Shown here piece by piece: positions 3,453 through 14,717 of a stretch of 24,310 nucleotides of DNA (positions are counted from its first letter, which is position 1; each line of letters starts with the position of its first letter). Source of the stretch: a virus; IMG/VR virus record IMGVR_UViG_3300032293_002087, positions 1 through 24,310 of that record. The stretch is one strand, 5' to 3'. The notes beneath the pieces were generated by a model that saw only the letters and a program-made list of their open reading frames with translations, was not told the DNA's origin and did no database searches. A program made the position numbers and the translations under genes.

Positions 3453-4596
3453 CATGAATTTTTCTGTCCATGAGACCGTAAAGATTCGGATTGTATTTTA
3501 CTTCATTCAAAGAATTCAGTGTTTTTGCAGATATACTTTCTGTAACCTTTTTCCACTTTCCACCTTTTGACTTATAGCACTTAGCAGCCCAGGCATTTGC
3601 ATATGCGCTTGGGTACACGTCAAATTTTTCTTTTGCCTGTTGAATGCAAGAACTCCATTTTTTTGGATCTTTTGCTTTGTTTTTCTTTGCCTCAAGAAGT
3701 TCAGATTCTTCTTTCAACATTGAAGAAACCGATTGCGTGCTCCATGTCTTGCATGCCCAGTAACGTGCTTTCCACTTTGGTCCAGGATTATCGCAATTAT
3801 GTCTGGCTCTAAAATTTCTGCGACGGTCTGGATCGTCTCTCTTGATTTCCATGTTTGGGTCACCAAAATTTACCTTGACTACATTGCCTTTGTCATTTTT
3901 GACGTAGACCTTGTATTTTTTGACATCCCCGCGCATTATCTTGTTTAATTTTACTTTTTTATCTTGCTCCTCATAAACTTCAATCTTATCACCGTATTCA
4001 TTGTATGAAGTTTCTTCGAGATTATCAACAAACCCCATTGTTGTCTCTGGAACAAAGTTTTCATTTATCTCGCAGCCGTTTTCGTCGCTAAAATTTACAA
4101 GGATGTTATCTGTTCCTTCTTCGATATAATTGACTTCAAGAAGCTGTCCAGATTCATTTATGATGATATCGCAGGGAAGCAGATCCTTTGCCTTGATGGG
4201 ATCAAAGGACATGGTAAAAACTGAACTTGCTCCTTCAACCAAAAAGTTGTCAAAGCTTTCTTTTACCTCAGTGACTCCTGTCTTTACAAAGATAGGCTTC
4301 TTTCCTTTGCTGTCACCAAGACCTTTTTTACCTCTTCCGGCTTTTTTCTGTGCTGCTCTCTTCTTACGAACAAATGCTGCAATCTTTGCCTTGCCGAGCT
4401 TCTTTGCCTTCTGTCTACTGAGGCAGGCTGCATAGGCTTCGCCTTCTTCGGCATCTCCGCATTTTCCGACTCTCTCGCCTTTGGTGTTGTAACGATCCCA
4501 CCCCGGACCACCACCAGCTGATTCCTTGTTGAACCATTTCCCCAATCCTGAATTGGAGAATACTTTTTCTAACAAAAATTTGGTAGTCTTATGCAT
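3448..4596 (-). CDS. Putative internal head protein: modular, basic, Cys-rich, CTS-like N-terminus
   Basis: A 382-residue protein of several small modules. Residues 1-10 (MHKTTKFLLE) have the form of a capsid-targeting helix with an L-x-E cut site. Residues 28-95 are a basic Cys/Gly module (GPGWDRYNTKGERVGKCGDA, then AYAACLSRQKAKKLGKAK) like small DNA-binding-like modules of many phages. After L-V-E121 comes a beta-rich stretch (about 128-175). Residues 220-285 carry the common myovirus pattern KKYKVYVKND..VNFGDPNM..RRRNFRARHNCDN..KARYWACKTW. After L-L-E302 a last module has WSSCIQQAKEKFDVYPSAYA..KGGKWKK. Its start overlaps the upstream stop (TAATG). Basic, Cys-rich modules between possible gp21-type sites suggest a cleavable DNA-associated core protein; this is inference. 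Confidence 0.8.
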   Translation of the reverse strand: MHKTTKFLLEKVFSNSGLGKWFNKESAGGGPGWDRYNTKGERVGKCGDAEEGEAYAACLSRQKAKKLGKAKIAAFVRKKRAAQKKAGRGKKGLGDSKGKKPIFVKTGVTEVKESFDNFLVEGASSVFTMSFDPIKAKDLLPCDIIINESGQLLEVNYIEEGTDNILVNFSDENGCEINENFVPETTMGFVDNLEETSYNEYGDKIEVYEEQDKKVKLNKIMRGDVKKYKVYVKNDKGNVVKVNFGDPNMEIKRDDPDRRRNFRARHNCDNPGPKWKARYWACKTWSTQSVSSMLKEESELLEAKKNKAKDPKKWSSCIQQAKEKFDVYPSAYANAWAAKCYKSKGGKWKKVTESISAKTLNSLNEVKYNPNLYGLMDRKIHD

Positions 4597-6980
4597 TATT
4601 TCCAGTCCTTGTTTTGCTTCTCGCCTTTTTTGTGTCCATTGTCGGATCTGTTTTCGGAACGATCACGTAGACGCAAATTGTGTGTTTTATTTGATCCACC
4701 ATTTCTCAATGGTTTCTTATGATCTATATCTTTTCTTGATCCTTTTTTGACCAAACCTTTTTTGATCATCAGTTCTCTGGCAGCTGTTCTTGCAGCTCTT
4801 TCCTTCCGCTGCTTTGGCTTTCCATGGTAATTTCTGTATTCTTTTTTATAATTTCTTTTTGCTTCCTCTGCCAAGGCATTCGAAAGGATTCCTTCGAATA
4901 TTGGAACCAAAAACTCAGGATCGCGGTTGGTTTTCTCACTTATTGAGTTCAGAAGGGGAATCAAGCAACCTTGAAGCAAGTCTTCCTCTACCAACAACTG
5001 CTCACCGTAGTGCTTGATCAATGAGGCTTCCGAATCACTAATGAGATTCATGGTATTTAGCTGAGTCAGAAGGAAATTGTTTGTCAACGACTCAATTAAC
5101 ATCTCATTCAAGATTAAATAGTTTTCACCTAGAATTTGATTTGATATCTTTTCAGTCGTATTGACAGGAATCTTGAATGTTTTCTTGCCAATCGTAACAT
5201 AATTGTATTCGATTGCGTTGATATCCTCTGGCTTGAATCCAGGCAGCAAGCTTGCATTGATATCAAATGTTAGACTTTGCATTGCATTGTTTACGATGAC
5301 CCCGAGAGGATCTATCTTTTTTCTGTCAACATACAATGCCTTTATTCCGGGAGCTTTTGTTTCCTTAGCCTCAACCATGGTTCTCCATTTTTGGAGATTT
5401 CCAATTGCTGCTTTTTTATAAGAAGAGATGTTATCATTATCGATAACTTCTTCTGTTTTCTTTACGTTTATTTTCGCTGTCTTCGAAAGCTCATCGATAT
5501 AATCATCGCTCAACGCAAATATACCATTTGCGGTGATTACGTGGGTGGGAGACATCTTCGGATCAGTGAGACCATCACCACGCAAAGAAGTCTTCATGAC
5601 ATTTGAAGCAAGCCTCTTGAGGAAGTCATTGTTCTTTCCGCCCCTGAAAAGCTGTTGACCAGCTTTCTTCAATGAAGATTCATATGCACTGATCGAAACA
5701 GCAGGATTGATGTTTCCATCTCTATCCACAACTGTTCCAAGACTTTCACCATTTGCTGAAGTGACCTCGGTAGCCTGCATCTGTGCCATGAGATCCGGGT
5801 CGCTCAGTATTTGAGAGATGGCTTGATCTGGCAAAAGCTTATCGGAAAACTGATTTCCAATCCCCTCAACATCATCTAGCATTTTTCTGACAGCTGGGTC
5901 GCTTTTAGCTGTTACCGGATCCAAGATTGTTTTTGCGATTGAGTTTCCTATTATTCCTTTAATCAATTTTCCGTTTTGATTCAAAGAATTGTTGCTGATG
6001 CTGAATTCGCCACCAGCGGAAATTTTAAACTTGTATTCACCACATTCAAGTTCAGGAGCTCCCTCTGAATACATGCTGCTGTTTCCCATCTCTATGCTGG
6101 AAACTAGATTTTGAATGCATGCATCTCCGATTTGTGAAAGAATCTTCGAAGCCTGCAAGAACGCAGCCTTTGTGAAGTCCAGAGAGCTTCCGCTAGAAGC
6201 TACCAAGGTTTGCATTTCTTGGTCGCTTGCCCCGGCCTTTATCTTCGCAACAAACAACAGAGCATTCAAAACTTGTTGATTGTATGGAGTATTTGATAAT
6301 GTATTGATACCGAATTTCGTACTTAAGTTTTCAAACGTAATGTTATCAAAATCGCGGCCAGGCATTGGTTTGCGCATGGCATCGAAGTATTCTTTTCTGA
6401 TATCAGGTGGCATGGATGCCAATTGTTCCGGAGTCATCTCCGTCATGGCATTCATTATTTCTTTTTTGGATAGTCTCTTGGCTTTGGGTGCTGCTTTCTT
6501 TTCCTGACCCTCTTCTGGCTTCTCTTCAGCGCCCTTTTCCTTTTCCTTTTCCTTGGCAGCAGGAGCTTTCTTTTCTTCTTCTTTTGGCTTTTGCTTTACA
6601 TCGCCAAATAAAAGCTTTGATGCTCTGGTTTGCTCAAAGTTTGGATCTCCAGTGACCTGCCGAGCCTCTTCCTCGGTCATGGTTTCACCCTTGCCAATCT
6701 TTGTATGGATATTCTTATTAAAAGAATCTTTAAAGATTAGCTGAACGTTTCCGGATCTGGTCTTTACTGCTATTACTTCCTTTACGAGTTCTGCCTTCGG
6801 CTTCTTCTCTCTGGGAACTTGTTTTGCTCTCTCTGCGCGCTTTCTGGCTGCATCCTTGGCCTTATCGCTTGTTGCTGACGACTTGGCTCTGTCTTTTGAC
6901 AAAGCTTCACCAGTTGTTCTAAAAGAATCTTCGGTGCTGCGAGAGGCTTCGGTTAAACGTAAAAGGTCCTTAAAGTTCAT
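4596..6980 (-). CDS. Large putative virion protein with CTS-like N-terminus and HNH-like C-terminus
   Basis: A 794-residue protein. Residues 1-11 (MNFKDLLRLTE) fit a capsid-targeting helix ending L-T-E, followed by A. Residues 12-170 are Lys/Glu/Ala-rich and look disordered (KEKEKEKGAEEKPEEGQEKK). Residues 175-690 appear folded and largely helical, without a motif I know. The last 95 residues are very basic and hold DIDHKKPLRNGGSNKTHNLR then SENRS: D753-H754, GG, N768 and N777, the layout of an HNH (beta-beta-alpha metal) motif without zinc cysteines. Similar basic C-termini occur in short proteins of many T4-like phages. CATAAATA ends 6 bases before the ATG and no clear Shine-Dalgarno is present. 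The next gene overlaps its stop. Nuclease activity is unproven. Confidence 0.85.
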   Translation of the reverse strand: MNFKDLLRLTEASRSTEDSFRTTGEALSKDRAKSSATSDKAKDAARKRAERAKQVPREKKPKAELVKEVIAVKTRSGNVQLIFKDSFNKNIHTKIGKGETMTEEEARQVTGDPNFEQTRASKLLFGDVKQKPKEEEKKAPAAKEKEKEKGAEEKPEEGQEKKAAPKAKRLSKKEIMNAMTEMTPEQLASMPPDIRKEYFDAMRKPMPGRDFDNITFENLSTKFGINTLSNTPYNQQVLNALLFVAKIKAGASDQEMQTLVASSGSSLDFTKAAFLQASKILSQIGDACIQNLVSSIEMGNSSMYSEGAPELECGEYKFKISAGGEFSISNNSLNQNGKLIKGIIGNSIAKTILDPVTAKSDPAVRKMLDDVEGIGNQFSDKLLPDQAISQILSDPDLMAQMQATEVTSANGESLGTVVDRDGNINPAVSISAYESSLKKAGQQLFRGGKNNDFLKRLASNVMKTSLRGDGLTDPKMSPTHVITANGIFALSDDYIDELSKTAKINVKKTEEVIDNDNISSYKKAAIGNLQKWRTMVEAKETKAPGIKALYVDRKKIDPLGVIVNNAMQSLTFDINASLLPGFKPEDINAIEYNYVTIGKKTFKIPVNTTEKISNQILGENYLILNEMLIESLTNNFLLTQLNTMNLISDSEASLIKHYGEQLLVEEDLLQGCLIPLLNSISEKTNRDPEFLVPIFEGILSNALAEEAKRNYKKEYRNYHGKPKQRKERAARTAARELMIKKGLVKKGSRKDIDHKKPLRNGGSNKTHNLRLRDRSENRSDNGHKKGEKQNKDWK

Positions 6981-6986
6981 CTAAAT

Positions 6987-6994
6987 TATTTATG
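6987..6994 (-). promoter_or_regulatory. Probable T4-type late promoter (CATAAATA)
   Basis: On the minus strand, CATAAATA is one base from the T4 late consensus and lies 6 bases before the ATG of the 794-residue protein, in the 20-base gap after the upstream gene. The extended sequence CATAAATAATTTAG closely matches CATAAATATTTTAG at 13563-13570, which supports a real shared signal. Confidence 0.6.
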
Positions 6995-12601: not shown

Positions 12602-12907
12602 ATGCCTAATTATGCTTATAAGTGTGAAAAATGTGATCATTCATTTGATGAAATGTTGAAGTATGAGGAACGGGACACTCCCACAACAAAACCTTGTCCA
12701 AATTGCAAGAAAAAGAAAGTGCTCAGAGACTGGGCTGCTGGAACCCCTTCCCTTGCTATGGATGCAACATTAACTCCAAGTAAAGTTGTTGGAAGCCAGT
12801 TCAAGGAAGTAATAGATAAAATTAAAAACAGCGGTCAAGTTCCAAAAAGATTGCATGCAAAACTTGATGCCAGTGCCAATATGAATGCTGGTCGTATCGT
12901 CCGTTAA
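12602..12907 (+). CDS. FmdB-type zinc ribbon protein
   Basis: A 101-residue protein starting 1 base after the HNH stop, with GGAAGAAA in front. The N-terminus MPNYAYKCEKCDHSFDEMLK followed by PCPNCKKKKVLRDW is the CxxC...CxxC zinc ribbon of the FmdB family (MPxYxYxCxxCGxxFE). The last 50 residues are an unrelated basic tail (SQFKEVIDKIKNSGQVPKRL). FmdB-like proteins are annotated as putative regulators in bacteria and are frequent in T4-like phages, where their role is not established. It is probably cotranscribed with the HNH gene. Its stop overlaps the stop of the convergent resolvase gene. Confidence 0.85.
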   Translation: MPNYAYKCEKCDHSFDEMLKYEERDTPTTKPCPNCKKKKVLRDWAAGTPSLAMDATLTPSKVVGSQFKEVIDKIKNSGQVPKRLHAKLDASANMNAGRIVR

Positions 12908-13443
12908 GCCTTGGACTGGATCATTGCCTTCAAAATATAATAACTATCTATAATATCCGTAACAGGATTGCTCAGTGAATTTTGACCAAAGACCGAAATT
13001 AAATCGGTCTTTGTTTCTTTGCTAAAGGCTTCGTACATTGCCTGTTTATCCGCGTTTCCCTTGCCCGTGGCGAGTTTCTTTACCTTGGACGGCTCTACGA
13101 TGGTCACGGGAACGGCGAGCTTATGGAGCTTGTATTTCAGGATTCCGCAGTTCTCCGCAAGATTAAAAACTCGCCCGTGGGAACCATAAGAATAGCCCTC
13201 TATGGCTACATCTGCAGCCCCAACACATAAATTTGTGGCCCATTCCGAAATTGTATCAAATCTTTCCGTATCGTAGGCATATTCCTCAAAACCTTCCCCA
13301 TTGATATTTGGGGCAATTTTTGTGGCATACTTCTTTGTATTGGTCAAAAAGTAGAATGAGCAATTGGCAAAGCAAAATTCTCGCTTCTCGTCATAAAGAC
13401 AAATAGCCGGGCTGGTTATAGAATAATCAATGCCTGCTAACAT
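12904..13443 (-). CDS. RuvC-like Holliday junction resolvase
   Basis: About 179 residues with an RNase H/RuvC fold signature: LAGIDYSITSPAICLYD (first beta strand with the catalytic D), VAIEGYSYGSHGRVFNLAE (second acidic residue, E), VEPSKVKKLATGKGNADK, and NPVTDIIDSYYI near the end with two further Asp. It would cut branched DNA before packaging, the job of gp49 (endonuclease VII) in T4; RuvC-like replacements occur in other phages. The open frame begins at 13452 (MFSMLAG), but I prefer ATG 13443 because a perfect TATAAATA ends only 3 bases before 13452 and the family begins near LAGIDYS. No Shine-Dalgarno is evident for either start. It is convergent with the zinc-ribbon gene. Confidence 0.85.
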   Translation of the reverse strand: MLAGIDYSITSPAICLYDEKREFCFANCSFYFLTNTKKYATKIAPNINGEGFEEYAYDTERFDTISEWATNLCVGAADVAIEGYSYGSHGRVFNLAENCGILKYKLHKLAVPVTIVEPSKVKKLATGKGNADKQAMYEAFSKETKTDLISVFGQNSLSNPVTDIIDSYYILKAMIQSKA

Positions 13444-13455
13444 GGAGAACATATA

Positions 13456-13463
13456 TATTTATA
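13456..13463 (-). promoter_or_regulatory. T4-type late promoter (TATAAATA)
   Basis: A perfect minus-strand match to the T4 late-promoter octamer in a non-coding gap, 12 bases before ATG 13443 of the RuvC-like gene. With T4 spacing the RNA would start near 13450, giving a leader of only a few bases. Late expression fits a resolvase needed before packaging. Confidence 0.7.
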
Positions 13464-13470
13464 CCTTGGC

Positions 13471-13555
13471 CAGCAGCGGTGGTTCCTGAGCATTACGATG
13501 AGCGTATACTTCGATTGGCCCAAAAGGAATGCGTGGAACAACCCCACCGCCGCTG
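13471..13555 (-). ncRNA. Candidate structured RNA or fold-back element
   Basis: In the 157-base gap between two minus-strand genes, CAGCGGCGGTGG (13555-13544 on the minus strand) pairs with CCACCGCTGCTG (13482-13471) over 12 base pairs. The single imperfect pair is a G-U wobble in minus-strand RNA but an A-C mismatch in plus-strand RNA. Directly inside, TTCC pairs with GGAA next to a GGTTG bulge, then GCATT pairs with AATGC, leaving a loop of about 30 bases. CATAAATA sits just upstream, so an RNA could start near 13557. No known RNA family is recognised. A start-less open frame also crosses the element on the minus strand, so a remnant of a coding sequence is possible. Confidence 0.4.
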
Positions 13556-13562
13556 ACTAAAA

Positions 13563-13570
13563 TATTTATG
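13563..13570 (-). promoter_or_regulatory. Probable T4-type late promoter (CATAAATA)
   Basis: On the minus strand, CATAAATA is one base from the late consensus. It lies immediately after a strong terminator-like hairpin and about 6 bases before the fold-back element at 13471-13555. No start codon is placed to use it, so it would drive a short RNA or the RuvC-like gene some 120 bases downstream. Confidence 0.5.
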
Positions 13571-13572
13571 AA

Positions 13573-13601
13573 AAAATCCTCCCCTTGATGGGGAGGATTT
13601 T
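13573..13601. terminator. Bidirectional rho-independent terminator
   Basis: A 12-base-pair perfect stem AAAATCCTCCCC / GGGGAGGATTTT with a 5-base loop, flanked by A-rich sequence on one side and a T tract on the other, so it can work in both directions. On the minus strand it begins 9 bases after the stop of the 364-residue gene and ends in six T residues. It is the natural end of that transcript and lies just before the next late promoter. Confidence 0.85.
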
Positions 13602-13609
13602 TATTTTTA

Positions 13610-14704
13610 TCAGTATCTTGGGCTATAAACTTTCATCGATCTTAAAGCCTGTCTGGCGGCTCTCTGTTCTGATTCTTTTCTTTCTTCATCACTCATGTCT
13701 CGGTCTGCAAGAACCGACTGTATACCCAATGATACAGCTGTACCGGGACCTGGAATATAATCTGCTAGTTCAGAGGCTCCCTCCAAGCCAGCTCCCACAT
13801 AATCTCCCGCTTGGGTTCTTTGTGTCATGGCTGCTATAGAAGCTGCGGTTCCGATAACTGGCAACATTTTTAAAGCAGCTTTTCCTACTGCTTTTCCTGT
13901 TGATTTAACTGCTTGTGTAGGATCAGTTATGCCAGAAACATTAATTCCCGAACCACTTTTAGTTCTAAATGCTTTTACACCTTGATCAATTGCTTTATCT
14001 GTGACTTTTCTTAGATCACTATCCCTAGCCAAAACATCCAAATCTCTAGTTTCTGGAAATCTACCGCCAACGGTTGATCTTCCACCCCACTCGGTGGTTT
14101 GTGGACCGACAGTACCATAAGGTGTTACTGTAGATCTACTTTGAATTACTGGCTTTATTCTAGGATCATCTATATCAATTTTTTTTCCATCAACTTCTAT
14201 TGGAAATTCTGTAACTTTTTTGGGTTCTCCCAAAGCTCCAGTTGTTTCATCTTTTAAAGCAAACCCAGGTTCCCATCCTCTACCAATTTTTTTATTTCCA
14301 GTTATAGGATTTGTTTCAGCAACAATTCCTGGTGTAACGTATTGCATAGGTCCTTTGCTACGAGTAATTGCTACTCTTGTTAAAGACGGTACTCTATAAT
14401 TTGGATCGGCTTCAATTTTTGTTGCCACATCTTTAAATATTTCTTTATATGATTCTGGGTTCCATTCAATATCGGGAACCAATCTTCTTGTTGACACTGT
14501 TCCGGTGACAGTTTGTGCATTTGCTGGAATATGTCCAGCCGAAGTTATATCTGTATATTCTGCTGCTTTTGCTGGATCTATAAAAACACTCAATCCCTGT
14601 GGTTTAATTTTTTCTCCAGATACTAATCTTGCAGCGGTTCCTGGATCTGTTTTATGATAGAATGGAACCACACCCTCAAGTAAAAATTGTTTAAATCTCA
14701 GCAT
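13610..14704 (-). CDS. Putative head-packaged effector: CTS-like N-terminus, ADP-ribosyltransferase-like domain, hydrophobic C-terminus
   Basis: A 364-residue protein. MLRFKQFLLE (1-10), then G, is a close analogue of T4 capsid-targeting sequences, with L-L-E as a gp21-type site. Residues 14-90 resemble the core of diphtheria-toxin/PARP-type ADP-ribosyltransferases: FYHKTDPGTAARLVSG (H17), then LSVFIDPAKAAEY (Y50), with several possible catalytic Glu after it (E80, E84, E88). Residues 90-265 have no known motif. Residues 266-340 are Gly/Ala-rich and hydrophobic (KAALKMLPVIGTAASIAAM, IPGPGTAVSLGIQSVL) and could contact membrane. A perfect TATAAATA ends 5 bases before the ATG and a terminator follows the stop, so it looks monocistronic and late. 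T4 Alt, a packaged ADP-ribosyltransferase, is the model; the domain call is tentative. Confidence 0.75.
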   Translation of the reverse strand: MLRFKQFLLEGVVPFYHKTDPGTAARLVSGEKIKPQGLSVFIDPAKAAEYTDITSAGHIPANAQTVTGTVSTRRLVPDIEWNPESYKEIFKDVATKIEADPNYRVPSLTRVAITRSKGPMQYVTPGIVAETNPITGNKKIGRGWEPGFALKDETTGALGEPKKVTEFPIEVDGKKIDIDDPRIKPVIQSRSTVTPYGTVGPQTTEWGGRSTVGGRFPETRDLDVLARDSDLRKVTDKAIDQGVKAFRTKSGSGINVSGITDPTQAVKSTGKAVGKAALKMLPVIGTAASIAAMTQRTQAGDYVGAGLEGASELADYIPGPGTAVSLGIQSVLADRDMSDEERKESEQRAARQALRSMKVYSPRY

Positions 14705-14709
14705 ACCAA

Positions 14710-14717
14710 TATTTATA
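14710..14717 (-). promoter_or_regulatory. T4-type late promoter (TATAAATA)
   Basis: A perfect minus-strand TATAAATA ends 5 bases before the ATG at 14704. T4 late RNAs start about six bases after the octamer, which here puts the RNA 5' end at or next to the start codon. It directly follows the hairpin at 14717-14744. Confidence 0.75.

Follow-up and report, generated by a model that had tools for sequence, protein, structure and literature searches.

The stretch of DNA analysed here, referred to as the window, comprises 24,310 nt (positions 1–24,310 of the viral record IMGVR_UViG_3300032293_002087) and is a fragment of a T4-like phage in which genes for UvsX and a DnaB-like helicase are present. 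Within it, a 157-base gap is bounded by a minus-strand open reading frame (ORF; 13610–14704) and by a gene for a RuvC-like Holliday junction resolvase. Read along the minus strand, the gap contains a bidirectional terminator, a late promoter (CATAAATA), a hairpin (13557–13469), and a second late promoter (TATAAATA), followed by the resolvase gene (Table 1). The more likely start of the resolvase is ATG 13441–13443, giving a protein that begins MLAGIDYS, because ATG 13450–13452 precedes the transcript start predicted from promoter 2. This double ATG recurs in many relatives. The ORF on the other side of the gap encodes 364 amino acids, and its C-terminal part (265–348) weakly matches phage peptidase/endolysin PHROGs.

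Table 1. Features of the gap and of the adjoining resolvase gene, in window coordinates.
Feature	Position	Strand	Remarks
RuvC-like Holliday junction resolvase	12904–13443	−	PHROG 159, E 3e-27
Late promoter 2, TATAAATA, ahead of resolvase	13456–13463	−	predicted start 13450
Hairpin RNA, 89 nt, rod-shaped	13469–13557	−	covariation, homologues, folding energy
P1 3' arm, CCACCGCUGCUGGC	13469–13482	−	nearly all P1 pairs differ among families A, B and C, with pairing kept
P1b 3' strand, GGAA	13483–13486	−	pairs with UUCC 13535–13538
P2 3' strand, AAUGC	13490–13494	−	pairs with GCAUU 13528–13532
P3 3' strand, GCUCA	13499–13503	−	pairs with UGGGC 13518–13522
Apical loop, conserved part, UCGAAGUA	13507–13514	−	common to families A, B and C
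P3 5' strand, UGGGC	13518–13522	−	pairs with GCUCA 13499–13503; 3 of 5 pairs changed on both sides
P2 5' strand, GCAUU	13528–13532	−	pairs with AAUGC 13490–13494
P1b 5' strand, UUCC	13535–13538	−	pairs with GGAA 13483–13486
P1 5' arm, GUCAGCGGCGGUGG	13544–13557	−	4 of 14 pairs changed on both sides within family A
Late promoter 1, CATAAATA, ahead of hairpin RNA	13563–13570	−	predicted transcription start 13557
Bidirectional intrinsic terminator, AAAAATCCTCCCC..GGGGAGGATTTTT	13572–13602	both	between element and upstream gene

An initial annotation, made from the sequence of the window alone, had described a promoter followed by a closing stem of 12 bp (13471–13482 with 13544–13555) and two inner helices, TTCC/GGAA and GCATT/AATGC. 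The promoter was found at 13563–13570. The stem is present, but its actual length is 14 bp (13469–13482 with 13544–13557, helix P1); both inner helices (P1b and P2) are present and supported by homologues, a further helix (P3) having been missed. The pair regarded as the only imperfect one is indeed G-U on the minus strand, but position two of P1 is a second wobble, U-G. The structural observation was thereby confirmed as correct, and was understated. The 89-nt RNA folds at −38.5 kcal/mol compared to −26.1 kcal/mol for dinucleotide shuffles (z −4.1), beating 200 of 200 of these; the value for the whole gap (z = −7.65) includes the adjacent terminator. In the ViennaRNA minimum-energy fold of the window sequence alone the interior is paired differently, and the homologues back the inner helices of the initial annotation rather than this pairing. 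A pseudoknot between the J1 bulge and a strand 3' of P3, considered by eye, was rejected since it overlaps the P3/P1 pairing. A possible base-pairing target, the complement of the apical loop, is present at a single coding-strand site in the window, within a gene.

The first base of the hairpin RNA (13557) lies 6 nt past the ATAAATA of promoter 1. Computed across the free-standing homologues, the spacing between promoter and P1 is constant at 5 nt, rarely 6, and the first base of P1 is G. At the spacing usual for T4-type late promoters this first G of P1 is the first transcribed base, and such a start is what we predict for the hairpin RNA. In contigs of two relatives, an ORF of at least 80 aa begins no more than 30 nt after ATAAATA at 26 of 64 and 23 of 47 sites, as compared to 0 of 72 and 5 of 77 sites for the control TTAAATA. 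Resolvase genes that have no element nearby are still preceded by a late promoter. ATAAATA occurs at just two further minus-strand sites in the window (14710–14716 and 6987–6993), positioned 5–6 nt ahead of ORFs 13610–14704 and 4596–6980, as would be expected for late promoters. A terminator precedes the element in many homologues as well, its sequence differing from that in the window. No terminator was found after P1, which runs into CAAGGUAUAAAUA rather than into a run of U; the hairpin was for this reason rejected as an intrinsic terminator itself, the actual terminator being the separate hairpin at 13572–13602. Because no terminator lies 3' of P1, transcripts from promoter 1 should continue into the next gene, and with such read-through a separate small RNA would need to be produced by processing.

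A search with the resolvase yielded 80 viral contigs, about 45 of them with the element upstream, and pattern scans yielded additional loci. By an approximate tally, in which contigs are counted once and protease loci (see below) are included, the element is present at about 90 or more loci, these belonging to uncultured T4-like phages. An Rfam search had been proposed in the initial annotation; with Rfam 15, at gathering and at permissive thresholds, the element had no family, and only the tRNA of the window passed. The best sub-threshold match near the element scored 28.3 bits, the threshold being 55, such matches being mostly driven by the terminator, and nothing approached threshold for the homologues L055 and L043. 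Searches of cultured phages and plasmids by blastn returned no element and at most terminator-like matches. Bacterial genome contigs contained no real element, the two matches obtained there being unrecognised by the covariance model described next.

We examined covariation in a MAFFT alignment of 20 copies of family A, which are free-standing, the alignment not being fitted to the structure. Pairing is possible in 95.5% of cells, and 9 of 28 pairs exhibit changes on both sides. Compensatory cells number 59 as compared to 20.3 ± 5.0 after shuffling, a level reached by 0 of 500 shuffles; when the pairing partner was slid by 1–3 columns as a control, at most 2 pairs had changes on both sides. 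The count of doubly changed pairs does not by itself stand out, as 9 such pairs were attained in 36 of 500 shuffles, nor do the extra pair types, which are fewer than the shuffled mean. Alternative versions of the inner helices are readily seen: P2 occurs in family A as GCAUU/AAUGC, GUAAU/AUUAC, and GCAGU/ACUGC, P3 as UGGGC/GCUCA, UGGAG/CUCCA, and UGGAA/UUUCA, and P1b is UUCC/GGAA in family A and GUCC/GGAC in part of family C. A covariance model built from the 20 family A sequences alone detected family B (L057 at E 5.6e-7, L061 at 3e-6, L055 at 3.6e-4, with weaker values of 0.0023 and 0.0081 for its two most diverged members, L060 and L063), in which the sequence of P1 is different and complementarity is again present. 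The same model detected family C, the protease-embedded form, at 1.1e-8 to 6.7e-6.

Across 52 unique copies of all families we counted 1272 Watson-Crick, 86 G-U, and 11 A-C cells. Because G-U is far above A-C, selection is on the transcript of the minus strand, in agreement with the strand chosen in the initial annotation. When changes were counted along the resolvase tree by the Fitch method, there were 127 pair-preserving double changes and 31 losses, numbers that are indicative since this alignment was fitted to the structure and the tree is blurred by recombination. Conserved secondary structure together with compensatory changes, by which a structured phage RNA is recognised, was found here; the initial annotation had named a lack of compensatory changes in homologous regions as evidence against its proposal, and the outcome was strongly the opposite. 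These computations demonstrate that the gap holds an evolutionarily conserved, selected hairpin structure on the minus strand.

The covariance model also matched seven loci previously thought to be without the element, and in family C the hairpin is found within a coding sequence. This sequence encodes a lipoprotein of 265 residues that carries a trypsin domain (PF00089, E 7e-10); the hairpin spans approximately its codons 36–66, after the lipobox Cys (residue 18) and before the Trypsin match, which begins at residue 77. The protease gene is directly upstream of the resolvase, with its own stop ahead of the resolvase promoter. A wider search gave 44 protease loci, with the hairpin in all of those whose hairpin region was read, and the conserved apical loop UCGAAGUA is retained in this form. 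For one hairpin to occur both free-standing and, at the matching place in the genome, within the coding sequence of a protease is unusual. An AlphaFold model of the protease, consulted as to whether the hairpin encodes a linker, had a mean pLDDT of 31.5, too low for a conclusion. The protease loci, L040:1990–2784 among them, represent a trypsin-like lipoprotein of T4-like phages with a late promoter; no protease homologues were found in cultured phages by tblastn.

We asked whether the codons of the embedded hairpin are constrained by more than the peptide. Compared with synonymous recodings of the same peptide, the hairpin had z values of −5.6 to −7.1, with 0 of 300 recodings as extreme in each case, as opposed to −1.2 to +2.0 for other windows of the protease. 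Identity at synonymous codons between protease groups was highest in the hairpin, at 0.81, as compared to 0.51 downstream; in 20,000 draws of random codon sets of the same size, none was as high. The signal-peptide region of family C (codons 1–35) also has elevated synonymous conservation (0.72 versus 0.51). For closer relatives the values were 0.91 in the hairpin, 0.92 before it, and 0.71 after it. The raised identity ahead of the hairpin indicates that the constraint comes in part from something besides the hairpin. Computation thus places the hairpin under constraint in coding and non-coding contexts alike.

The free-standing and embedded forms are homologous, occupy one locus, and are intermixed in several clades of the resolvase tree, with at least 6 switches between them. 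This alternation would fit an origin of the free-standing copies as remnants of a decaying protease gene, yet compensatory changes have preserved pairing in these copies and no open frame is shared by those of family A, so that we consider this reading largely refuted and give it hardly any credence. Free-standing copies differ in length by steps of 1–3 nt, so that lengths are not kept to multiples of 3. Among 28 unique copies of family A, stops interrupt the three frames in 15, 21, and 23. In family B one frame stays open in 10 of 10 copies, 7 of which represent one length class of close relatives. With no conserved open frame among the family A homologues, a start-less protein-coding frame was rejected as an explanation. 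The particular frame noted in the initial annotation (..QEPPLLAKV) differs from the protease frame; the accompanying idea of a decayed gene fails as it was put, although relatives do have a protein-coding version of the hairpin.

One copy, of either form, was found in each element-bearing contig that was searched whole, including five contigs of 94–137 kb. No element was found in G003, a 94-kb contig of the same group, contigs being possibly fragments; some phages of the group thus seem to be without it, and it is not essential everywhere. In the loci examined, the element is at most approximately 2.5 kb upstream of the resolvase. A cassette or other gene separates the two at 7 analysed loci: a three-gene cassette of mostly unmatched proteins, also termed structural, at L025:1562–3999, L046, L054, L056, L093, and L137, and at L115 a gene of 745 aa that is not the cassette. 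A single copy that adjoins a Holliday junction resolvase in coding or non-coding context alike, with variable gene content beside it, could be a DNA-level site, in which the sense single strand folds and serves replication, recombination, or cassette exchange; G-T pairs would be tolerated by single-stranded DNA too. The excess of G-U (86) over A-C (11) speaks against a simple double-stranded cruciform. Transcription of free-standing copies is moreover predicted to begin at the base of the helix, and in two contigs where cumulative GC skew was used to look for an origin, it showed no extremum at the element. We consider a DNA-level role improbable.

Rickettsia has palindromic elements that are repeated and mobile and that occur outside genes as well as in frame within them. 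Our hairpin is likewise palindromic and present in and outside genes, and insertion of such a mobile in-frame palindrome into a protease linker would explain why homology stops at about the ends of P1, with differing flanks, and why the embedded copy lies between the lipobox and the trypsin domain. In contrast to the Rickettsia elements, however, the hairpin is single-copy, is confined to one conserved locus, and is strongly maintained; no other insertion sites were found in viral or genome contigs, and a decaying insertion is not expected to hold its structure so strongly. A mobile origin is very improbable, and the repeated form of it was rejected as several copies at different sites were not found. 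Translational bypass in T4 gene 60 also involves a hairpin within a T4-type coding sequence. By contrast with gene 60, every protease gene read has an open frame through our hairpin, with conserved residues, and no conserved pair of take-off and landing codons flanks the hairpin in the protease genes read by eye.

The main rival to an independent RNA is a cis-acting leader, in which a 5' hairpin protects late mRNAs or controls translation of the next gene, by reasoning similar to that for the hairpins of T4 e, soc, and 49. The element is directly ahead of the resolvase in most analysed free-standing loci and is never far from it in the loci examined, RNA and gene are not separated by a terminator, and the flanks of P1 (AUAUUUU and AAGGUAU) could lengthen the helix so as to cover a weak ribosome-binding site; the T4 resolvase gene 49 also has structure in its start region (PMC3014915). 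On the other side, the next gene varies (resolvase, structural cassette, or 745-aa gene), the family C hairpin sits within an ORF, a second late promoter is interposed between hairpin and resolvase, neither start codon is covered by P1, and a plain 5' stabiliser would not need such conserved loops. The initial annotation had offered a leader of the resolvase mRNA as one option; it is weakened by the seven loci with intervening genes and by the protease form with its own stop. On balance we regard a leader function as unlikely.

We favour, with moderate confidence, an interpretation in which the gap encodes a late phage RNA, most likely one acting in trans through its loops. Late promoter 1 would begin the transcript at the base of the 14-bp helix, and the RNA would fold into a single rod with conserved internal and apical loops. 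It would function independently of neighbouring genes, because the structure persists whether the resolvase or a cassette is next to it or it lies within a protease coding sequence. Late in infection its loops would probably be presented to a protein or RNA of the host or the phage; when embedded in the protease gene, the RNA would act in place or be excised from the mRNA. The computations establish a conserved minus-strand structure and the position of a predicted late promoter at its base, in line with the small late RNA suggested initially, while its transcription and stability as a separate, discrete RNA, as well as its action in trans, are what we infer. Somewhat more tentatively, we propose an RNA class with two interchangeable forms, a stand-alone late gene and an in-frame protease segment whose codons are selected for the RNA, acting in trans late in infection. 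The switch between stand-alone and nested forms at one locus represents a natural experiment that separates RNA function from protein function.

The inhibitory mRNA hairpins of T4 genes e, soc, 49, and I-TevI are likewise structures near late promoters of a T4-type phage, and gene 49, like the gene beside our hairpin, encodes a Holliday junction resolvase (PMC3014915). The T4 helices sequester the Shine-Dalgarno sequence and/or the start codon of the gene that follows (PMC3014915). Unlike in these, P1 ends (13469) before the resolvase ATG (13443 or 13452), loop sequences are conserved, different genes follow, and an ORF-embedded form of the hairpin exists. Sequestration of a ribosome-binding site of this type was rejected for the window, AAGG being reached only if P1 is extended through promoter bases. 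In the T4 type, late transcripts avoid the repression by beginning inside or past the hairpin; here the predicted start of promoter 2 is 3' of the hairpin, and promoter 1, which starts ahead of it, is conserved. RNAC and RNAD of T4 are also small RNAs of a T4-type phage, with role unknown, and by their description are set apart from our hairpin: they come from the T4 tRNA region (PMC3014915), whereas the hairpin has its own late promoter and matches no Rfam family at gathering score. According to the T4 review, no trans-acting small regulatory RNA from T4 has been functionally characterised, and related phages might supply candidates (PMC3014915). The hairpin described here, which covaries strongly across uncultured T4-like phages and has no counterpart in Rfam, is such a candidate.
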